Shown: positions 3,935 to 12,940 of the stretch, piece by piece
Position numbering within the stretch: position 1 is the first letter of the stretch
How the letters are laid out: the number at the start of each line of letters is the position of its first letter
DNA from: Protofrankia coriariae
GTDB lineage: Bacteria; Actinomycetota; Actinomycetes; Frankiales; Frankiaceae
DNA: 37,777 nt
NCBI RefSeq assembly: GCF_001017755.1
Contig: NZ_JWIO01000029.1
Span: forward strand, 11,289-49,065
Direction: 5' to 3'
The notes under the pieces: model-generated
Told to the model about the DNA's origin: nothing
Database searches by the model: none
What the model saw: only the letters and a program-made list of their open reading frames with translations
Program-made: the position numbers and the translations under genes

Positions 3935-4549
3935 TTACCGGGCTGTGGGGTCGAGGCCGAGGGCGGTGAGCTGTTCGGCGATCCAGTCCACCCGCTGGGC
4001 GGTGGACATGTTCGGCGGGATATCGTAAATACGCTGCCCGACGCTGGCGCAGGTGCTGCGCACGACGCGGTCGGCGGCCGGCTGGATGTCGAGCACCTTC
4101 GACCGGTACGGGTCGCCGGCCTGCTGCTGGTCGAAGCGGTCGCAGCAGTAGAACACCGCGTCGTAGACGTGTGCCCAGGCCCGGCAGAACGTGTCCATCG
4201 CGCGCAGGACGGGGCCGTGCGGGCCGTCGGGGCCGCCGGGCAGGACCAGCCAGGCGTAGGCGAGGACGTTCGCGATCGTCTTGTCCGCGATGATCATCGT
4301 GTGGTGGCGGGCGGTGCGGAGCTGGCTGGACAGGTGGGCGGCGAACAGGTCGACCTCGGTCTCCAGGTCGAATGCACCGCGGCCGTGGACGACGATCTCC
4401 TCGATGAACGGGCTGTTGCGGGCGGGTTCGGGGACACAGGCGACGTGGATGCCGCGCTCCCGGTAGTAGGCGGCGAGCGCGTGGGTCAACGTCGTCTTCC
4501 CGGAGGCGTGGGTGCCCTCCACGGCCACGACCAGGCAGTCACGCAGCAT
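3935..4549 (-). CDS. P-loop kinase-like ATPase (AAA_28/NadR-Ttd14 type)
   Basis: A 204-aa protein with Walker A GTHASGKTT at residues 12-20, followed by the E-P-A-R-x-S-P-F segment characteristic of AAA_28 (NadR/Ttd14-like) P-loop kinases, and an M-I-I-A-D-K motif that is probably Walker B-like. Such proteins phosphorylate small molecules or nucleosides; the substrate is unknown. ATG 4549 has an AGGAG site 6-10 nt upstream. It lies between an unknown gene and the NUDIX hydrolase, a pairing that suggests nucleotide-type substrates or metabolite repair. Confidence 0.8.
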   Translation of the reverse strand: MLRDCLVVAVEGTHASGKTTLTHALAAYYRERGIHVACVPEPARNSPFIEEIVVHGRGAFDLETEVDLFAAHLSSQLRTARHHTMIIADKTIANVLAYAWLVLPGGPDGPHGPVLRAMDTFCRAWAHVYDAVFYCCDRFDQQQAGDPYRSKVLDIQPAADRVVRSTCASVGQRIYDIPPNMSTAQRVDWIAEQLTALGLDPTAR

Positions 4550-4669
4550 CGGCCAACTCCTGTCCCGCGCTCTTCTGTCCCGCCGACGTCGCCGGCCGCC
4601 ATCGGGGCGGAGGGTGGTGCTGTGCGGCGGTGTGCCGGCGACACCGGGCTGCCGCGGGACGGGTCATGG

Positions 4670-5404
4670 TCACGGCTCTGTCCCTGCGGTGGCGGGGGTC
4701 TGGTCCCAAGCGGCGGCCTCGACGATGGTGTCGAGGTGCAGGTCGTCGTCCCACTGGTAGTGGCCGCTGACCCTCGCGGCGATCAGGGCGATCGCCAGGG
4801 CCCGGACCAGCACCTGCCCCAGCGGGTCCGGAGCGGCGGCAGGCCCGGCGGATCCGGACCGGCCACGGCCGGGAGTGGCCGGATCGTGATCGGGAGGGAT
4901 GCCGGTGAGGCGGTAGCCGGCGCAGACGGCCGGCAGCGTCGCCGGTGTGGGATGCGGGCCGTGGGAGGTGTCCAGTAGCCGGGCGAGACCGCGTCCGCTG
5001 GCGCCGTCCTGCCAGGCGGCGGCGACAGCGGTGATCCCTCGCAGGGGCCGGCCGTCGGCGGCGGCGGCCAGGCGGGCCAGGTCGTCGGCGAGGCGGTGGC
5101 CGGCGAGAATCACGGCCCGGCGGCGGGCCTGGACGAGCAGCCCGTCAACCATCGCGACGACCGCCGGGATCTCCGCCGGATCGTCGACGGCGAGGGCGTG
5201 GAAACCGAACCGCAGCGCGGCGTCGCTGACCAGCAGCGGGCACGCCCGCGGCAGCCGCAGGTAGACGGCCCCCACGGCCATCGGCGGGTCGTCGGCGCCG
5301 CCGGCGACAGCGACGGCGGCCAGCAGAGGCATGCGCTCGGGGAAGGGGCGCCGCGACGCACCGAACGGGGTGTCCGCCCAGCCCAGGTTGCGCGCCTCAT
5401 GCAT
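4670..5404 (-). CDS. Unknown protein, faint RNase H-fold exonuclease resemblance
   Basis: A 244-aa protein. The start ATG at 5404 overlaps the stop of the radical SAM gene (ATGCATGA), so it is translationally coupled to it. Residues about 95-155 contain V-I-L-A-G-H-R-L-A-D-D-L and later L-L-D-T-S-H, which faintly recall the exo II and exo III motifs of DEDD 3'-5' exonucleases, but a clear exo I D-x-E is not visible. I therefore do not assign a function. Tight coupling to the radical SAM gene suggests it works with it, perhaps as a partner or substrate-binding protein. Confidence 0.65.
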   Translation of the reverse strand: MHEARNLGWADTPFGASRRPFPERMPLLAAVAVAGGADDPPMAVGAVYLRLPRACPLLVSDAALRFGFHALAVDDPAEIPAVVAMVDGLLVQARRRAVILAGHRLADDLARLAAAADGRPLRGITAVAAAWQDGASGRGLARLLDTSHGPHPTPATLPAVCAGYRLTGIPPDHDPATPGRGRSGSAGPAAAPDPLGQVLVRALAIALIAARVSGHYQWDDDLHLDTIVEAAAWDQTPATAGTEP

Positions 5405-6437
5405 GGACGCTCCCGGCCGGGACGGGCCGCGCGGGCGGCCGGTCGCTACGCGCCAGGGTGCGGATCGACTGGCCCAGGTACTTGGCGTAGTGATTGCGCT
5501 GGAACCGGTAGCGCTGCCAGAGCGCGGTAATCGGCTCGTCGAGGAGGCTGCCGAGCGGTTCCAGCAGGTCCGGGGCGGTGTAGACCGGCCAGGCGCTGGC
5601 CGTCCCACCCGGCCCGACGACGATCATGTGGCCTTCGGTGGCCGGGGTCCACGCGGTCAGCCGCAGCGCCGGCCGCCAGTCGTGCACGGTGCGCAGCTCG
5701 GTCAGCCGCTCGAACGCCGCGGTGGCCTCCTCGAGGCTGAGGAATTCGTGGCCGGCGAGGTCGAGCGCGTTGCCCTTGCGCAACGGCAGGATGAGTTTGA
5801 GTTTCCCGGCGTCGAGCACGTCGGCGATCTGGTAGGTGAACGGCAGCGCTGCCAGCGTCGAGCGGTAGACGACCGCGGACAGCGACAGCGGCAGGCCGGC
5901 GTCCTGGAACGCCCGCACCCCGGCCAGGACCGTGTCGTAGTCACCGCGGACCCGGTTCGTCGTCGCTCGTGGGCCTTCCAGCCCGACGTTCACGAACGCG
6001 ATCTTGCCGGTCAGGTGGTGGGCGTGTTGGATGCCGCGGGTCGCGTTCGTGGGGACACCGAGGACGGTGCCGGTGAACATGTCGACGATGTCGATGAAGT
6101 CCCGGCGCAGCAGCGGTTCCCCACCGGAAAGGAACACCCGGGGCACCCCGGCCAGGTTGTCTCGGACGCGTTCGAGCACGGCGAGGCTGGGATCGGGCTC
6201 CTGCAACGTCTCCGAGCAGAACGAGCAGTCGAAATTGCACCGTTTGGTGACCTGGAGAATGACCGAGAGCGGGCCGGCCGCGGCGTCGACCACCGCGTCC
6301 AGGTCCTGCGGGCCGGCGAGGCTGAAGTGATGCCCGTCGGTGAAGACCACGGGTGCGCCCGCACGCAGGCGTGTCTCGCCGGGGACCGGCGGCGCCGCTG
6401 CGGTTTCGATCACGGGTATGGGGGTAGAGGCGATCAT
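5397..6437 (-). CDS. Radical SAM enzyme without visible SPASM cluster
   Basis: A 346-aa protein. The 4Fe-4S motif CxxxCxxC is C67-N-F-D-C71-S-F-C74, preceded by L-Q-V-T-K-R; the SAM-binding G-G-E-P is at 105-108. No cysteine cluster follows in the C-terminal half, so auxiliary clusters are not supported. The fold resembles peptide-modifying enzymes of the MoaA/PqqE group. ATG 6437 was chosen because AAGGAA lies 4-10 nt upstream; the frame is open further upstream. It is followed by an overlapping gene of unknown function. An IS256 remnant separates it from the MFS gene, so it was probably once contiguous with the 7267-11200 operon. Confidence 0.88.
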   Translation of the reverse strand: MIASTPIPVIETAAAPPVPGETRLRAGAPVVFTDGHHFSLAGPQDLDAVVDAAAGPLSVILQVTKRCNFDCSFCSETLQEPDPSLAVLERVRDNLAGVPRVFLSGGEPLLRRDFIDIVDMFTGTVLGVPTNATRGIQHAHHLTGKIAFVNVGLEGPRATTNRVRGDYDTVLAGVRAFQDAGLPLSLSAVVYRSTLAALPFTYQIADVLDAGKLKLILPLRKGNALDLAGHEFLSLEEATAAFERLTELRTVHDWRPALRLTAWTPATEGHMIVVGPGGTASAWPVYTAPDLLEPLGSLLDEPITALWQRYRFQRNHYAKYLGQSIRTLARSDRPPARPVPAGSVHA

Positions 6438-6684
6438 CGGTTCCTTCTTGACGTGGTCGCGTGCGGTGAAGCAGCAGCCAACCGGCCAGCCCTGTCCTGA
6501 CGGCGTGCTGCCATCGGACGCTGAACACCCGTCAGCCTCCCAAGTGGGCGTACGGGCAGTCATTCCCCGTAGAGGGAAGATGTGCTTCGTACCTGTGCAC
6601 CCCCGCTGACCTGCCCAAACAGGCACCGGGGAGCCTGCATGTTCCACGCGGGAGCAGAGAATCGTTCGGCTGCTTCCCCGTCGC

Positions 6685-7233
6685 CACGGCAAGCACCGGG
6701 GCGGCCATGCCGCGGCGCTTGCCGTCGCACAGCAGGTCGACCCACGACTCGGTGGACTCGCGGTAGCCGTCAGCCAGCGCGACGAGTTTCTTGCGGCCGT
6801 CGGCGCGGACGCCGATCATCACCAGCAGGCACAGCCTGTGTTCGGCGAGGCGGATGTTGACGTGGATGCCGTCGACCCACAGGTAGACGAAGTCCACATC
6901 GGACAGATCACGCTCGGCGAACGCGCGCTGTTCAGCCTTCTACGTCTCGGTGAACCTGGTGATCACTACCGACGGTAGGTCCTTCGCCGAGCCGAGGAAT
7001 TGGCCCAGCGCGGGCACGAAGTCACCCGAGGATAGCCCGTGCAGGTACAGCGGCGGCAGCACCTTTGTGATCTTCGGGGTCTTGCGCGCCAACGGCGGCG
7101 GAGTCGCCGAGGAGAACCTCATCCGCTCGCCGGTGGCGGGATCGACGCGCTTGTCGTTCACCCGCGGCGCGGTGACCTTGACCGCCCCGGCACTGGTCAG
7201 CACCTCCCGCGACCGACGCGCGGTGTGGTGTAT
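6685..7233 (-). pseudogene. IS256-family (Mutator) transposase fragment
   Basis: An internal piece of an IS256-type transposase read right to left. Upstream part: R-E-V-L-T-S-A-G-A-V-K-V-T-A-P-R-V-N-D-K, then L-Y-L-H-G-L-S-S-G-D-F. Downstream part: D-F-V-Y-L-W-V-D-G-I-H-V and A-D-G-Y-R-E-S-T-E-S-W. The two parts are in the same frame but separated by an in-frame TAG after T-R-F-T-E-T. Both ends of the usual roughly 400-aa protein are missing. It is therefore a decayed insertion lying between the MFS and radical SAM genes. Confidence 0.85.
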
Positions 7234-7266
7234 CGCCGTTGGGGTCGCCGCCAGGGGTTGTGCGGG

Positions 7267-8568
7267 TTATCCGGTCTGGCTGGCGATGGCGGGTTGTCGT
7301 GTCGGGTCGGGGGGTGGGGTGATGGTGTCGGGTGGCTGGCCGGGGGTGAGCGCGATGGTGGTTGTGGTCACGGTTGCGGTGAGGCCGCAGACGGCGAGGA
7401 GGAGGGTGGGGCCGATCGGGCCGGCGAGTGCTCCGGCGAGGGGGAGCGCGAGGGGTCGCGGTGCTCCGGAGGCGAGGATGTCGGCGGCTACGACGCGGGA
7501 GAGCAGCCGTTCGGGGACGTGGGTTTGGAGGAGCATGGCGTGCAGGGTGTAGCCGGCCATGGCGATCCCGGTTGTGGTCATGGCGGCGGTCATGGCCATG
7601 CTGCGGGCCGGGTTGGGGAGGTGGGCGGTGAGCGCGACGGTGAGGGTCGCGGCTGCGCCGAGGGCGAGGAGTGTGTAGTAGAGCCGGAGCCGGGCGGCGG
7701 GGGAGTGTGGTCGGCGGTGCGGGAGGAACAGGATGCTGCCGGTGACCGCGCCCGCGCCTTGGGCGGCACCGAGCCAGCCGATCGTGGCCGGGGACATGCC
7801 GCCGGTGAGCACGATCAGCGGCATGAGTGCGTCCAGGGGGGCCAGCGCGAGCCCGGAGACGGCGGCGGAGGTGAGGAAGGAGCGGCGTAGCCAGGGGGTG
7901 CGGGCGACCGTGATGGCACCTTCGCGGATGTCGTGCAGGAGCCCGTTCCCGCGGGTGGGGGGGACGGGCGGGGTGGGGATGCGGGCGGCGGTCAGGGTGG
8001 TGGCGGCGACCGCGAACGTTGCGGCGTCGATGAGGAGGCCGGCCGCGGCGTTGCCGAGCAGGAGCACGAGTCCGGCGAGCGCGGGCCCGCCCAGGCGGAT
8101 CATGTTGTTCGTCAGGGTTGTCAGCGCGACGGCGGCGTCGTGGGCGTTGTCGGGCACCGTTGCTTTGATCAGCGCCTTGTAGGAGGGCTGGTGGTAGGCC
8201 GATAGTGCGCCGACCAGTGCGGCGGCACCGTAGACCGCGGGCAGGGGGAGGTGGTCGGTGAGGAGACCGACGCCGAGTGCGAGGCTGACCGTTCCGGAGA
8301 TGATGTCGGCGGCGAGAACGATCCGGACGCGGGAGCCGCGGTCCCCGGCGGCCCCGGCGAACGGGAGGAACAGCAGGCTGGTGGCGACCAGGACGCCGAG
8401 GACCGCGCCGACGTGGACCCCGGAGTGCGTGAGCTGGTAGACGGCGACGGTGATGACCGTGTCGAAGATGTAGTTACCGGCGCGGGAGACGCTTTGTCCG
8501 GTCCATAGCAGTGCGTACGGCCGGTGGGCCAGCGGGGTCAGCATCCTGCCGCGCGGGGTCGGGTTCAC
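7267..8568 (-). CDS. MFS transporter
   Basis: About 433 aa of alternating hydrophobic segments consistent with 12 membrane helices, and an N-terminal pattern typical of MFS exporters (L-W-T-G-Q-S-V-S-R-A-G-N near the first helix; D-R-G-S-R-V-R after the second, matching the loop 2-3 motif). The GTG at 8568 forms a GTGA overlap with the stop of the kinase gene; an alternative ATG is at 8544. As the last coupled gene after a small ORF, MBL enzyme and kinase, it most likely exports the product or gives self-resistance (inference). Confidence 0.85.
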   Translation of the reverse strand: MNPTPRGRMLTPLAHRPYALLWTGQSVSRAGNYIFDTVITVAVYQLTHSGVHVGAVLGVLVATSLLFLPFAGAAGDRGSRVRIVLAADIISGTVSLALGVGLLTDHLPLPAVYGAAALVGALSAYHQPSYKALIKATVPDNAHDAAVALTTLTNNMIRLGGPALAGLVLLLGNAAAGLLIDAATFAVAATTLTAARIPTPPVPPTRGNGLLHDIREGAITVARTPWLRRSFLTSAAVSGLALAPLDALMPLIVLTGGMSPATIGWLGAAQGAGAVTGSILFLPHRRPHSPAARLRLYYTLLALGAAATLTVALTAHLPNPARSMAMTAAMTTTGIAMAGYTLHAMLLQTHVPERLLSRVVAADILASGAPRPLALPLAGALAGPIGPTLLLAVCGLTATVTTTTIALTPGQPPDTITPPPDPTRQPAIASQTG

Positions 8569-9440
8569 GGGGCGGTCAGGCCGTGCAGGGAGGACAGTCC
8601 GGTGGCGGTCGCGAACGCGGTCAGCGCACGGATCAGGGACTGGTCGTTCCAGCGGGCACCGCGGTCGGTGGTGGCGGCGAGGTAGGCGCGGCGGATCCAG
8701 CGCGGGTCGAGGTCGAGCCCGGCGGCGTGCGCCACCGACGGCAGGGTGATCAGGTCGGGCATGCCGGTGAGGTCCGGGCGCAGGGTCTCCACATCGATGA
8801 TCCGTACCGTGGTGTCGTCGTCGGCGCGGAGGTGTGCGGGTTTCAGGTCGAGGTGTCCCAGTGGTATGTGGGCGGGTCCGTGAGCGTCGGCGGTCACGTG
8901 CAGGAGCATGCACCACGCGTCCGGATTACTGATCCATCTGGGGGGTGGTGCGGTCAGCGCGGTGTCCAGCTGCCAGCAGGCGGTGGCCGTGACGAGGGAG
9001 GGAGGCCAGCGGGCGGAGGCGGTGTGCACGGTCGCGATCGCGGTGACGAGGGCGTCGAAGGTGGTGGGCCGTGACCAGTTGGCGGGGCGGGCCACATGGT
9101 CGACCAGCAGGGTGTGGGAGGTGTCGCAGGCGCTGCGCAGGCCGGGGAGGACGTTCTGCCCGGCCAGCAGTTCGTAGGCGAGGGTTTCACCGGTGTAGGC
9201 GTCGGGGTCCCCGTGGCGTTTGAGGACGGCGACCGGTGGATCCCCGAGGGTGAACACGGCTGTGCGGTAGCCGGCACGCAGGCAGCGCAGCGGGCCGCGG
9301 GCGTGGGGATGAAACCGGCTGATCAGATCCTGGGCTTGGGCTGCGGCGGTGGTGGGGTCGGTGTCGAGGGGGGTGGCCAGCCAGCCGTCCGGTCGGATGC
9401 GGGTCGCGCCTGCCAGCGGCCCGGCCGGGTCGGGGTTCAT
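8565..9440 (-). CDS. APH-fold phosphotransferase with altered catalytic loop
   Basis: A 291-aa protein of aminoglycoside-phosphotransferase/choline-kinase type. It has a V-A-V-L-K-R nucleotide-binding lysine segment, the catalytic loop H-L-D-L-K-P-A-H and an I-I-D-V-E-T metal-binding segment. In the family the loop is H-x-D-x4-N; here the last position is His, so the usual metal-binding Asn is replaced. It overlaps its neighbours by 4 bp on both sides (ATGA at the MBL stop, GTGA into the MFS gene), so it is translated with them. Substrate unknown; it may modify the locus product or act as a self-protection kinase. Confidence 0.8.
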   Translation of the reverse strand: MNPDPAGPLAGATRIRPDGWLATPLDTDPTTAAAQAQDLISRFHPHARGPLRCLRAGYRTAVFTLGDPPVAVLKRHGDPDAYTGETLAYELLAGQNVLPGLRSACDTSHTLLVDHVARPANWSRPTTFDALVTAIATVHTASARWPPSLVTATACWQLDTALTAPPPRWISNPDAWCMLLHVTADAHGPAHIPLGHLDLKPAHLRADDDTTVRIIDVETLRPDLTGMPDLITLPSVAHAAGLDLDPRWIRRAYLAATTDRGARWNDQSLIRALTAFATATGLSSLHGLTAP

Positions 9441-10942
9441 GGGTGGCGGGCCGGGGAACCGCGCAGCGCGGCGACGGCCCGCGTGTAGCAGGTGTGGGCG
9501 AGGTCGGGGCGCTGGTGCTCCCCGTAGATGGCGAACAGGGCGTAGACGAGGGAGTCCAGGGGTTCGCCGAGGTGCCAGCCCTGAAACGAGCCGCCGATGA
9601 TGTCCCAGATCTGGACCTGGCCGCGGAGCAGGCCGACGAGGTCCTGGTAGTAGATTTCCGCGCCGAACGGGTAGGTGGCCATGGCCGCCTCGCGTCCGGT
9701 GGTGGGCACCGGCACGAACGCGGGTCCGGTGATGTCCCAGGCGTAGCTGTCCGTCGTGCCGGGGCTGCCGGGCGGGTCGAGCAGGCGGAGGACCGCCCGC
9801 TGCGGCCCGAGCGGGCCGGACAGGTAGTCGTGGATGCCGCCGGCCAGCGCGCCGGTCCGGGTCGCGATCAGATGCCGGGCGAGTCGGGGGAGTTCGGCGG
9901 CGAGAAGCGTCCGGGCGTCGCTGATGTCGTCGGCGTGGATCAGCGGTGGGGCGATCGGGGTGGGTTCCACCGGGCGGGGGTCAGCGAGGAAGGCGCGTTG
10001 GCGGGCGTAGGCGGCCTGCTCGGCGTCGGTGTCGATATGCACCCAGCGGACCCGGTCACAGCGCGCGGGCCCGCCGGCGGCGGGCAGGGTCAGACGGTCA
10101 CCGGGCCGCGGGCCATACACGGTGAACAGGTGTTGGAGGGCGTTGGCGGCGTCGGCGAGCCTGGCATGGTCGGCGTAGAGAAACGGGCCGTGCGGGCTGC
10201 GCGGGGCGGTGAAACCGTTGCCGCACAGCGCGACCTCGCTGACACCGTCGAGCGGTTCCACATAGCTGATCAGCAGGCTGTGGAGGATCTCGATGCCGGT
10301 CGTGCGGCGGCGGGGCCCGTCCAGGCCGGGGAGCAGGTTCGTGTCCGCGCCGAGTGCCCCGTAGGGGACGGTCTGGGCGTTGTTCGACACCACCGCCAAC
10401 CGGGGCGGCAGCAGAGCACCGTCGGTGAGCTGCTCGACGTACAGGTCACTGACGTCGGCGTCGACACCGATGAACACGTCAGCGCCGGTGGTGTCTACCA
10501 GCCGGATCAGCGGCTGGGCGACCCGGGACTCCCAGAACAGTGTCCGGGCAGCCGCCGGATACAGGAAGATCTCCATCTCGCCGACCCGCAGCGGCTGTGT
10601 GTGGTCCAGCCGCCGCACCGTGAAACCCACCATGCGGATCGCGTCGACCACCGCGGTGGGGGTGGTGACGCCGGTGTAGACCGGTACCCGCCGGTCGAGC
10701 AGGTCAAGGGACGGCAGGTGGAAGTGGTCGAGATGCTCGTGGCTGAGGACCACCGCGTCCGGGCGGGGCATCGCGGCGACGTCCACCGTGCGAGGCGGCC
10801 ATAGCGCGAACTCCAGCTGCGGGCAGGCCCCGAACGCCGGGGTGAGGATCGGATCGAGCAGCACCACAGCGGTGCCGTCACTGATGTGCCAGCTTTGATG
10901 GCCCAGGAACGTCAGTTCCAGGCCGGTGGACCGCGGGGCCAT
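9437..10942 (-). CDS. Metallo-beta-lactamase-fold hydrolase/oxidoreductase
   Basis: A 501-aa protein. The N-terminal half is an MBL-fold domain with the metal motif H68-E-H70-L-D72-H73 in the L-S-H-E-H-L-D-H-F-H context and L-T-F-L-G-H-Q-S-W at its start, close to the UlaG/PqqB-like branch. The C-terminal 200 residues or so form an extra domain I do not recognise (ends near L-V-Y-A-L-F-A-I-Y-G-E-H-Q-R). ATG 10942 has an AGGA about 10 nt upstream. The gene follows a 48-aa ORF and a 17-bp hairpin. MBL-fold proteins occur in RiPP pathways (PqqB in PQQ), but the reaction here is unknown. Confidence 0.8.
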   Translation of the reverse strand: MAPRSTGLELTFLGHQSWHISDGTAVVLLDPILTPAFGACPQLEFALWPPRTVDVAAMPRPDAVVLSHEHLDHFHLPSLDLLDRRVPVYTGVTTPTAVVDAIRMVGFTVRRLDHTQPLRVGEMEIFLYPAAARTLFWESRVAQPLIRLVDTTGADVFIGVDADVSDLYVEQLTDGALLPPRLAVVSNNAQTVPYGALGADTNLLPGLDGPRRRTTGIEILHSLLISYVEPLDGVSEVALCGNGFTAPRSPHGPFLYADHARLADAANALQHLFTVYGPRPGDRLTLPAAGGPARCDRVRWVHIDTDAEQAAYARQRAFLADPRPVEPTPIAPPLIHADDISDARTLLAAELPRLARHLIATRTGALAGGIHDYLSGPLGPQRAVLRLLDPPGSPGTTDSYAWDITGPAFVPVPTTGREAAMATYPFGAEIYYQDLVGLLRGQVQIWDIIGGSFQGWHLGEPLDSLVYALFAIYGEHQRPDLAHTCYTRAVAALRGSPARHP

Positions 10943-10977
10943 GCCAGAGTCGTCCTTTCTGCTCTGCCGCGAGGGGC

Positions 10978-11024
10978 CGGCGGGCAGGGATCCCACGAAG
11001 GGGGAACGGGACCCCTGCCCGCCG
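10978..11024 (-). promoter_or_regulatory. Long hairpin between small ORF and MBL gene
   Basis: Arms 10978-10994 and 11008-11024 pair over 17 bp with a single mismatch, closing a 13-nt loop. The hairpin sits 29 bp after the stop of the 48-aa ORF and 35 bp before the next start. No U-tract follows on the minus strand, so it is more likely a partial terminator or mRNA-stabilising element that raises small-ORF transcript over the enzyme genes. Confidence 0.7.
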
Positions 11025-11053
11025 ACCCGGACAGAGCCAGGCGTTGACGGGTT

Positions 11054-11200
11054 CTACCGGTGGTAGGCCGTCGGGGCGGTGTCGGTGACACGGGTCGCGG
11101 TAAACGCCCGCACCCGGCGCTGCACGCGGGCCACGTCCTGGACGGTGACCTGCGCGGGTGTCGGAGCCGTACCGGTGGGCTGCCCGATGGTGCTACTCAT
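11054..11200 (-). CDS. 48-aa small protein, candidate precursor peptide
   Basis: A 48-aa ORF, MSSTIGQPTG at the N-terminus and a tail ending D-T-A-P-T-A-Y-H-R. It has one of the best ribosome sites in the window: AGGAGG six nt upstream of ATG 11200. It is the first gene of the minus-strand operon and is separated from the MBL gene by a long hairpin, as is usual for RiPP precursors. Residues 16-37 are amphipathic (A-Q-V-T-V-Q-D-V-A-R-V-Q-R-R-V), a plausible leader; the Tyr/His-containing tail would be the core. There is no Cys. The radical SAM enzyme 4.6 kb downstream could modify it. The precursor role is inference. Confidence 0.65.
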   Translation of the reverse strand: MSSTIGQPTGTAPTPAQVTVQDVARVQRRVRAFTATRVTDTAPTAYHR

Positions 11201-11521
11201 CGCCTTCCTCCTTCCTGGGGCTTCGGGGCCGCGCGGACATGGCGGTTACCGGCACGCCGAAGGGCGAGCCGTGCTCTGGCCGCCTTGTCCACCGCCCCTC
11301 GTTGGGGCTGGCATGCCGCCGCCGGGGCCGGTCTGCTGCTCATCGCCCCGGCGGCGACCGCTCCCAGCACACCGCAGGACGACGCCCACAGGAAGGCCGT
11401 GGCAATGGCCTAATCAGTGGCCGTTTCAGTTGCCGTTTCCGGAAGCCGTCCGGGGAGCGACGTCGAGACGGCTAGTGTTACCGCGTTCAGTCACTCAAGC
11501 GACACGCAGGACGTGGCCGTC
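11201..11521. promoter_or_regulatory. Divergent intergenic region
   Basis: About 320 bp between the small-ORF operon (-) and the HTH-TPR regulator (+). It must hold both promoters. No ORF in it looks coding. A TAGTGT at 11472-11477 is a possible -10 box for the regulator, without a convincing -35. Confidence 0.4.
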
Positions 11522-12940
11522 ATGTCGGGAGACACCCCCGTACTGATGTTGCGGGCCTACCGGGAGTGGTACGGCCTCGAGCAGCACGAAGTTGCCTCAC
11601 GACTGGTGACCCTTGCCCACGCCATCGACGGCACGCACCCCGGGGTCAACGACGAGATGATCTCCCGGTGGGAACGCGGACTGGTCCGACCACGACGACG
11701 CTACCGGCAGCTGCTGTGCACGCTGTACCAGGCGACAGAAACGCAGCTGGGATTCTGCCGGCCCCTCCCCGGGGAGACCGTCATCCACCCGTGGCCGCCG
11801 GTACCCGCCGGCGACAGCGCATCCGCAGACACCACCATGGCGCTGCCCTGGAACGCGGAGGGCGGTTTGCAGGCGGCCCGGGGCATCCTCGACGCTGAAG
11901 GCATGGATCGTCGACTGTTCCTCACCGCCATGGGCACGGCGATCACCGAACCCGCCCACGGGTGGCTGTTTGCCCCACCCGTGGACTCCGTGACCCGGAA
12001 CAGCGGCAGCCGTCTGCCCGCCACGGTCGTCGACCACCTTGACCAGATCATCGACCAGCTCCGCCGGATGGACGACCAGCTCGGTGGGGGCGCGCTACTC
12101 GGCCTGGTCCGCCAGCACCTCGCCTACGTCATCGGCCTCATCGAGCATCGGCGTTACACCGACAGCGTCGGACGCCGCCTCCACGCCACCGCGGCCGAAC
12201 TCCTCCGGCTGGCGGGCTGGCTTTCCTTCGACGCCGGTCAGCACGCCCCCGCGCAACGTTTCTTCGTCGCCGCGCTCCACGCCGCGCACACCGCCGGTGA
12301 CCGCGCGCTCGGCGCCAACATCCTCGGTTTCGCTTCCTGCCAGGCCAAGGACCTCGGTCATGTCCGTGCCGCGGTGTCACTCGCTGAAACCGCCCTGGCC
12401 GGCTATCCCGGTGGAACACCCCGGGTGAGCGCGATCCTGCACCTGCGGGCGGCCGAGGCGTACGCCAACGACCAGCAGACCACCGGCTGCCGCACGGCGA
12501 TCGACACCGCGTTCGACCGGCTGACAGACGCTGTTCCCGAGCACGGCGAACCCGGATGGTGCTATTGGATCAACGAGGCGCAGGTGCACGCCCAAGCCGG
12601 GTACTGCTATCTGAAACTCCACGACTGGCCCCGGGCGCAAGAACATCTCCACGCCGCCCTGTCCTTGCAGGACACGGCGTTCTCCCGCGAAGCAGCCCTC
12701 CGCCAGACACTGCTCGCCACCGCCTACGCCCGGCAGGATCCCCCCGACCTCGACCGGGTAACAGCACTCGGCAATGCCGCCGTCAACACCCTCACCGGGG
12801 AAGTCGACTCAGCCCGATGCATCGGCCATATGAGCCGCCTGGCCACCCACCTGGCGCCCCACCGCCGGACACCAGCAGTCCGCGAACTCCTCGACCGCGC
12901 TGATATGCTCACCGCTTCACCGTCCTCAAGATCTGTATAA
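11522..12940 (+). CDS. HTH-TPR transcriptional regulator
   Basis: A 472-aa protein with an N-terminal XRE-like HTH (about 1-75: L-R-A-Y-R-E-W-Y-G-L, then M-I-S-R-W-E-R-G) and a long alpha-helical C-terminus (about 170-470) rich in repeated A-A-x-x-L-x-x-A patterns typical of TPR/Spr1654-like ligand or peptide sensors. ATG 11522 was chosen because the HTH begins immediately; the frame is open back to 11417. Divergent orientation from the 48-aa ORF operon suggests local regulation, possibly by the mature peptide. The intact ISL3 element begins 43 bp after its stop without damaging it. Confidence 0.8.
   Translation: MSGDTPVLMLRAYREWYGLEQHEVASRLVTLAHAIDGTHPGVNDEMISRWERGLVRPRRRYRQLLCTLYQATETQLGFCRPLPGETVIHPWPPVPAGDSASADTTMALPWNAEGGLQAARGILDAEGMDRRLFLTAMGTAITEPAHGWLFAPPVDSVTRNSGSRLPATVVDHLDQIIDQLRRMDDQLGGGALLGLVRQHLAYVIGLIEHRRYTDSVGRRLHATAAELLRLAGWLSFDAGQHAPAQRFFVAALHAAHTAGDRALGANILGFASCQAKDLGHVRAAVSLAETALAGYPGGTPRVSAILHLRAAEAYANDQQTTGCRTAIDTAFDRLTDAVPEHGEPGWCYWINEAQVHAQAGYCYLKLHDWPRAQEHLHAALSLQDTAFSREAALRQTLLATAYARQDPPDLDRVTALGNAAVNTLTGEVDSARCIGHMSRLATHLAPHRRTPAVRELLDRADMLTASPSSRSV

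Follow-up and report, generated by a model that had tools for sequence, protein, structure and literature searches.

Introduction

PqqB, of pyrroloquinoline quinone (PQQ) biosynthesis, is an iron-dependent hydroxylase with a metallo-beta-lactamase (MBL) fold, and the peptide PqqA of the same pathway carries the motif Glu-x3-Tyr. The diiron beta-hydroxylases CmlA and FrsH have the MBL fold as well, with the third His ligand replaced by Glu. The substrate of FrsH is an aminoacyl residue bound to a nonribosomal peptide synthetase (NRPS) (PMC7794379). In class V lanthipeptides (CaoK/CaoY) and thioamitides of actinomycetes, an APH-like kinase acts on a small precursor (PMC9486802). Here we analyzed a 37,777-nucleotide stretch ("the window") of the Protofrankia coriariae genome (contig NZ_JWIO01000029.1, positions 11,289 to 49,065), a 5.8-Mb draft in 116 contigs that is 88% complete. 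On the minus strand of the window lie, in order, an open reading frame (ORF) of 48 amino acids (aa), a hairpin, an MBL gene, a kinase gene, a major facilitator superfamily (MFS) gene, an IS256-family fragment and a radical S-adenosylmethionine (SAM) gene. We find that the peptide, the MBL gene and the kinase gene recur together in three phyla, and we think it probable that they form a cassette of an undescribed class of ribosomally synthesized and post-translationally modified peptide (RiPP), in which a precursor with leader and core would be modified at its core by an MBL/SCP2-like enzyme and a kinase. The features of this proposed system are, by position in the window:

11054-11200, minus strand: ORF of the putative precursor peptide, 48 aa
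about 10962-11036, minus strand: long hairpin between the peptide and the MBL gene
9437-10942, minus strand: MBL-fold enzyme, 501 aa, with a predicted MBL domain and a predicted C-terminal SCP2-like domain
8565-9440, minus strand: APH/DIPK-like kinase, 291 aa, with conserved motifs
7267-8568, minus strand: MFS exporter (putative), 433 aa, not constant among loci

The MBL, kinase and MFS genes, described as a coupled operon in the first-pass annotation of the window, share 4 nt with the next gene at both junctions.

A conserved small peptide is encoded upstream of the MBL gene

The peptide (MSSTIGQPTGTAPTPAQVTVQDVARVQRRVRAFTATRVTDTAPTAYHR, 48 aa; sequence upstream of its ORF, CCAGGAAGGAGGAAGGCG) can be divided into a putative leader helix of the pattern V-x-x-x-Q-R-R-V-x-A-F and a putative C-terminal core, ...A-P-T-A-Y-H-R. 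It contains no Cys and no Glu, and so no Glu-x3-Tyr. To compare it with other loci, we gathered homologs of the MBL enzyme and counted tails ending in Y-H-[RHY] only afterwards; the compared set comprised 27 distinct loci in which the MBL gene is intact. A related small ORF was present in all 27: the tail is exact in 24, and the other 3 do not lack the peptide but carry a variant of it. Of the 5,130 six-frame ORFs in these loci (521 kb; minimum length 25 aa), exactly 24 ended in Y-H-[RHY], one per locus, and every one of them was the small ORF lying less than 400 bp upstream of the MBL homolog on the same strand (24/27 loci). The 48-aa ORF is a conserved gene, and two expectations of the first-pass annotation hold: that a precursor-like peptide is tied to the MBL and kinase genes (small ORF 27/27, kinase 25/27), and that its tail would be found next to homologous MBL genes elsewhere (24/27 exact).

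Peptides from the three phyla align across the leader helix and the tail, in an alignment that covers Streptomycetaceae, Actinomadura, the window's own family, a Chlamydiales metagenome-assembled genome (MAG; locus L015) and Caenimonas koreensis (L016). The Chlamydiales peptide ends in ...SPFSYHY, and its locus also encodes an ABC-transporter-like protein. The Caenimonas peptide reads ...ENVGGG/LTYHYQQGPN, with a GG site and a core LTYHY, and its gene is followed by those for HlyD, an ABC transporter with a C39 peptidase, and the MBL enzyme. A GG-leader peptide next to a C39-peptidase transporter is the usual layout for peptides that are exported with cleavage of the leader. In the actinomycete loci we identified no protease. 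Two loci with tandem MBL genes (L045 and L046) encode peptides ending in MFHHYTR and AHHHYVR, that is, HHY-x-R.

RefSeq annotates the peptide ORF as a gene in 4/4 intact plasmid loci. Across 10 chosen pairs (26 codons each), the summed ratio of nonsynonymous to synonymous change (pN/pS) of the peptide codons was 0.42, which indicates constraint on the amino acids. In the broken locus L017 the MBL match is truncated and the peptide interrupted, and for the broken loci L047 and L048 no intact tail was found in the stretch searched.

A hairpin separates the peptide and the MBL gene

Folded with its flanks, the window's hairpin reaches -76.3 kcal/mol (z -3.96), and none of 200 dinucleotide shuffles was as stable. 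A hairpin lies between the two genes in 26/26 loci where peptide and MBL gene adjoin, as the first reading of the window had noted for this one locus. There the spacer, 66-166 nt in length, forms a long helix with 11 to 30 paired bases uninterrupted on one side. Against mononucleotide shuffles, z was -2 or lower in 19/26 loci, the weakest being -0.5. The hairpin's sequence is variable while its position and form are kept, the AT-rich Chlamydiales locus included, and a search of the window against Rfam gave no match. The hairpin is probably an attenuator or an element of mRNA processing or stability.

The MBL enzyme is predicted to carry a C-terminal SCP2-like domain

The MBL enzyme (residues numbered as in P0001, the start Met not counted) is predicted to consist of an MBL domain at about residues 1-300, with a sequence match from residue 8 and the motif H67-E-H69-L-D71-H72-F-H74, and of an SCP2-like domain at about residues 304-495; the predicted model has a mean pLDDT of 84 and a pTM of 0.86. 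Compared by VIA-align, the MBL domain resembled RNase J (Z 19.4, root-mean-square deviation (rmsd) 4.8, 251 aligned), SaxA (Z 18.8, rmsd 3.4, 239 aligned), NAPE-PLD (Z 18.3) and the diiron hydroxylases CmlA (Z 17.9, rmsd 3.7, 232 aligned) and FrsH (Z 16.8, rmsd 4.0, 237 aligned). Profile comparison with CmlA-like proteins by hhalign gave a probability of 97.4%, in an alignment that is weak beyond about residue 120. PF18456 (CmlA_N) had no match in the MBL enzyme, nor in G000.

H69, D71, H72, H74, E137, R139, D160 and N187 do not vary in ten divergent rows. At position 67, His occurs in 8/10, with Asn instead in the second MBL of both tandem loci. The H-x-H, D-H and bridging Asp ligand positions of the CmlA/FrsH type are present in the window protein. 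The aligned third-ligand columns hold no His, and the candidate for the last His, H250, occurs in 6/10 rows, over a half of the protein where the alignment is weak. Judged from these residues, the metal site appears unlike that of a plain Zn2 hydrolase, and our preferred but unproven assignment is an iron oxygenase like CmlA, FrsH or PqqB.

The C-terminal 198 residues, predicted on their own (pLDDT 88.8), matched SCP2 best (Z 9.1, rmsd 3.0, 105 residues), with SdsA1 at Z 7.2; in Foldseek the best E value was 4.9e-3 and the top rows were mostly SCP2. Sequence comparison of this domain gave no match beyond single-member hits in Pfam, and a search of it against PDB sequences was empty. PqqD-like folds and folds like a RiPP recognition element (RRE) were absent among the 50 matches listed for this domain, though one may still exist.

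A kinase accompanies the MBL enzyme

A relative of the APH-type kinase is present in 25/27 loci, the other two being the tandem-MBL loci. In 13 aligned kinases, K74, E85, the catalytic D198, the metal-binding D216 and E218 are invariant, and H203 replaces the usual Asn. The window kinase itself had no match in Pfam or NCBIfam, and a search of the kinase profile against PDB sequences was empty. Among the 13 relatives, Pfam APH (E 0.084) and the FAM69 kinase domain (E 0.0069) drew only single-member matches, and RefSeq names one relative "DIPK family protein". The protein's putative kinase nature is read from these motifs, these single-member matches and this name.

Variant arrangements were also seen. 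In L045 (8900-12664) and L046 (8877-11801 and upstream), two MBL genes are adjacent and an MFS gene is nearby; in L045 a P-loop kinase gene follows. In Caenimonas L016 (6315-12917), the genes for the peptide, HlyD, ABC transporter, MBL enzyme, kinase and a histidine-phosphatase-superfamily protein stand side by side. That a phosphatase accompanies the kinase may point to an intermediate that is phosphorylated.

The cassette is scattered over three phyla

Genome contigs yielded 16 named loci with MBL homologs. Such homologs were found in 5/35 genomes of the window's order (the window's genome included), in 5/393 genomes of its class (the same five), in 10/394 genomes from the family to which a Streptomyces carrier belongs and in 2/297 genomes around Actinomadura. 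Around the Caenimonas carrier (300 genomes) and around the Chlamydiales carrier (151 genomes), the only genome with a homolog was the carrier itself. The MBL gene was also on 5/72,556 plasmid records. The carriers are actinomycetes, with linear plasmids among them, one betaproteobacterium and one Chlamydiales MAG. The window's MBL enzyme is about 71% identical to Streptomyces and Streptantibioticus enzymes vs 65-67% within its own family; in view of this closer resemblance and the five plasmid records, the gene has likely moved between lineages. Viral contigs gave only two matches, at 27-28% over 107 residues.

Several entries were left out of the 27-locus counts: L001 (the window itself); L002 (a 33% paralog in G000); L017, L047, L048 and L061, where the MBL gene is broken or partial; L018 (42% over 69 residues); the short viral matches L055 and L056; and L019-L022, L031-L043 and L051-L054, where a place already listed appears again, as a short or second copy.

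Variable neighbors

Upstream of the peptide gene, and divergent from it, the window encodes a regulator:

11417-12940, plus strand: NsdA-family HTH-TPR regulator, divergent (NCBIfam NF053720)

The match to NF053720 scored 318 bits vs a cut-off of 75. By direct comparison, a relative of this protein is present in 12/27 loci; family members occupy the equivalent position in other loci. NCBIfam also gives NsdA-family regulators in L057 and L058, the two further loci tested. A VOC protein is near the cassette in 19/27 loci (on the opposite strand in 5 of those 19) and a GNAT protein in 7/27. No close VOC relative was found in the window's genome. Apart from its cassette, genome G019 carries two more VOC genes on contig C43 (10593-15946), with 81-84% identity to the one of the cassette.

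The first-pass annotation had treated MBL enzyme, kinase and exporter as a trio. The MBL enzyme and the kinase are indeed constant partners (kinase 25/27); the exporter is not, with MFS proteins related to the window's in only 3/27 loci, the window included. The window's MFS protein probably serves product export or self-protection.

The radical SAM gene most likely belongs to a separate module

Beyond the MFS gene, the window contains features that we judge to lie outside the system:

6682-6891, minus strand: IS256-family transposase fragment, at the junction to the radical SAM module
3935-6437, minus strand: separate module of radical SAM, 243-aa and P-loop genes
5397-6437, minus strand: radical SAM gene of this module, with C-x3-C-x2-C
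4670-5404, minus strand: gene of this module for a 243-aa protein without family
3935-4549, minus strand: P-loop NMP-kinase-like gene of this module
about 6440-6677: conserved leader before the radical SAM gene (L049, 2583-2815; L050, 10030-10266)

The IS256 scar noted on first reading is borne out by a match to Pfam Transposase_mut (E 5.8e-8) on the ORF at 6532-6897. The place given to the radical SAM gene as a member of the locus did not hold up: a relative lies less than 9 kb from the MBL gene in 1/27 loci, that of the window. Among 20 genomes searched, three had a radical SAM homolog (G000, G011 and G019), and in G011 and G019 it lies on a different contig from the MBL gene. In G011 the radical SAM gene is the first of a module of its own, followed by the 243-aa and P-loop kinase genes. 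Over 3.2 kb this module shares 77% DNA identity with the window; the homology takes in roughly 235 bp of apparently non-coding leader and stops at 6677, next to the IS256 fragment. The module is most likely a separate unit set beside the cassette, although the G011 contigs are short (18 and 7.7 kb) and a distant linkage to the MBL gene may therefore exist in that genome. We rejected the radical SAM enzyme as a cassette partner on these grounds: its rarity beside the MBL gene, its stand-alone module in G011 and the IS256 junction. The sole other radical SAM protein seen beside a cassette lies in L012; it is the hopanoid-synthesis protein HpnH (504.7 bits, cut-off 225).

In the window's radical SAM protein the only Cys residues are the three of C-x3-C-x2-C, with no SPASM-type extra C-terminal Cys motif, and the PqqE model scored 43 bits vs a cut-off of 381. 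Weak pVip and MoaA-like matches might suggest a MoaA/viperin-like reading, and the module (window 3935-6677; L049; L050) could be a nucleotide-modifying or defense-like unit. In G019 the radical SAM gene is present as a truncated copy, and the DNA upstream of it is similar. The leader preceding the gene, about 235 bp long and apparently non-coding, is conserved in three genomes and had no Rfam match. RNAalifold predicted 96 pairs for it, 17 of them with two-sided change in at least one sequence, from 3 sequences only and with a positive (unfavorable) covariation term.

Discussion

We propose that the cassette works as follows. Thanks to the hairpin, precursor transcripts would exceed enzyme transcripts. 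The leader helix would be recognized by both the kinase and the MBL/SCP2-like enzyme, whose target on the core would most likely be the invariant Tyr-His pair. The MBL enzyme would oxidize Tyr or His in a metal-dependent reaction (most likely with iron, in the manner of CmlA or PqqB), and phosphorylation by the kinase may activate the product for elimination or cross-linking, or may protect the producer. The leader would be removed and the core exported, by the MFS protein in the window or by ABC transporters in other loci; the divergent NsdA-family regulator would govern the unit, and the VOC and GNAT proteins of other loci would probably serve self-protection.

Several observations weigh against this proposal. 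Independent events number fewer than 27, since many of the loci are close relatives: the spacers of L010 and L059 are identical, for example, and the peptides of L003, L004, L011, L044 and L057 are nearly the same. The pN/pS is mild, with pN above pS in 1/10 pairs and equal to it, to two decimals, in another 1/10. The core is short and the residue preceding its Tyr is variable (T, S, A, Y), and hairpin z is above -2 in 7/26 loci. The fold of the MBL domain is no proof of an oxygenase, because hydrolases and nucleases score equal to or above CmlA and FrsH. The columns of the CmlA Glu ligand are variable (A/N/P/K; R/T/G/D), the nearby E137 being invariant in 10/10 rows, and no RRE was identified.

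A bolder version of the proposal is that these loci form a RiPP class of their own, in Actinomycetota, Pseudomonadota and Chlamydiota, in which the MBL/SCP2-like enzyme oxidizes the Tyr-His pair and a dedicated kinase phosphorylates the product. We put this forward tentatively and rather doubt it in full. Beta-hydroxylation followed by phosphate elimination, for example, could yield dehydro-Tyr or dehydro-His, or the pair could become a Tyr-His cross-link. In the open-licence literature searched, we found no description of such chemistry in a RiPP.

Among other explanations, the one that fares best is that the modified, exported peptide is a pheromone that binds the divergent NsdA-family TPR regulator, the locus being a signaling unit rather than an antibiotic pathway. 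Firmicutes TPR regulators do bind short peptides, and in the window as in other loci NsdA-family HTH-TPR regulators stand divergent, about 1.8 kb upstream. However, the Chlamydiales and Caenimonas loci lack, within 9 kb, any protein related to the NsdA protein of the window, regulators of this family also stand beside many other pathways, and the nearby VOC and GNAT proteins suggest protection from a bioactive product; we think this explanation unlikely.

It is also conceivable that the 48-aa ORF and the hairpin are a mere leader-peptide attenuator, sensing translation (e.g., of the Y-H-R codons) and controlling the MBL-kinase-exporter operon. A short ORF, a strong hairpin and a first enzyme gene are indeed the layout of an attenuator, with the hairpin's position kept in 26/26 loci, but amino-acid conservation spans the whole leader helix, and in Caenimonas the peptide is parted from the MBL gene by the HlyD and ABC genes and yet keeps its GG site and T-Y-H-Y, which makes this quite improbable. 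We give little credence to the idea that the MBL enzyme and the kinase confer resistance or detoxification and that the peptide is a toxin or an unrelated small protein. MBL, APH, VOC, GNAT and MFS proteins are resistance superfamilies typical of self-resistance, the MBL gene is on five plasmid records, and the VOC gene is on the opposite strand in 5/19 loci. Nevertheless, the peptide and the MBL enzyme are constant and the kinase nearly so (25/27), against 19/27 for VOC, 7/27 for GNAT and 3/27 for MFS, and a resistance enzyme has no need to keep a fixed-tail peptide across three phyla. Finally, a PQQ-like pathway, in which the radical SAM enzyme would cross-link the peptide and the MBL enzyme hydroxylate it into a peptide-derived redox cofactor, is very hard to sustain: in the window the three genes do lie on one strand within 6 kb, but a radical SAM relative is near the MBL gene in 1/27 loci only, homology to the self-contained G011 module ends at 6677, the peptide has no Glu, and the PqqE score is far below its cut-off.

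The first reading is corrected in this respect. The radical SAM enzyme is most likely an accidental neighbor, and the PQQ analogy drawn from it rests on a seemingly accidental junction, since the gene lies on other contigs than the MBL gene in G011 and G019 and is part of a self-contained module in G011. Returning to the proposed RiPP-type cassette, a conserved precursor is the most reliable route to a new RiPP class, and here it comes with a recognizable tail, Y-H-R/H/Y, and a fixed enzyme pair. The hosts are culturable, and in some the locus is on linear plasmids. With the cassette one can ask in a simple way whether modifying peptides as oxygenases is a general capacity of MBL-fold enzymes, a possibility raised by PqqB and CmlA, and what part the accompanying kinase plays.

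Comparison with known systems

In the open-licence literature, a search that leaves most subscription papers outside it, we found no description of the peptide, its tail or the cassette, and six tail strings sought inside words had no match in open-licence papers. The decRiPPter paper on candidate Streptomyces RiPP families (PMC7794033) has, in its main text, no word beginning with "lactamase", "MBL" or "metallo".

The cassette resembles the SdsA1/YjcS alkyl sulfatases in that its MBL domain is followed by a C-terminal domain predicted to be SCP2-like (Z 7.2 to SdsA1). It differs from them in that its enzyme is shorter, has an incomplete aligned Zn2 ligand set, shows no sequence match and is linked to a peptide gene. 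SdsA1, moreover, has a middle dimerization domain, which the cassette MBL enzyme lacks. With class V lanthipeptides and thioamitides the cassette shares an APH-like kinase next to a small precursor in actinomycetes, whereas the window peptide has no Cys, the residue before the Tyr is not always Ser or Thr, and the MBL enzyme is the constant partner; none of the 8 window proteins scanned matched a HopA1-type lyase.

With CmlA and FrsH the enzyme shares the MBL fold, H-x-H-x-D-H, the bridging-Asp position (D160) and the 97.4% profile match. In contrast to them, it has no PF18456, its MBL domain is N-terminal, the Glu ligand is unaligned, and a ribosomal peptide would take the place of the NRPS as carrier. 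The likeness to PQQ biosynthesis (PqqA/PqqB/PqqE) lies in a small precursor with a Tyr in the part that would be modified and in an MBL-fold enzyme. Unlike that system, the cassette has no linked radical SAM relative in 26/27 loci, has a kinase instead, and has a predicted SCP2-like domain on its MBL enzyme; no PqqD was matched in the 8 window proteins scanned. The first-pass annotation had recognized no described class, and of the named classes tested here none fits; by its gene anatomy, the locus fits the broad kind "RiPP".

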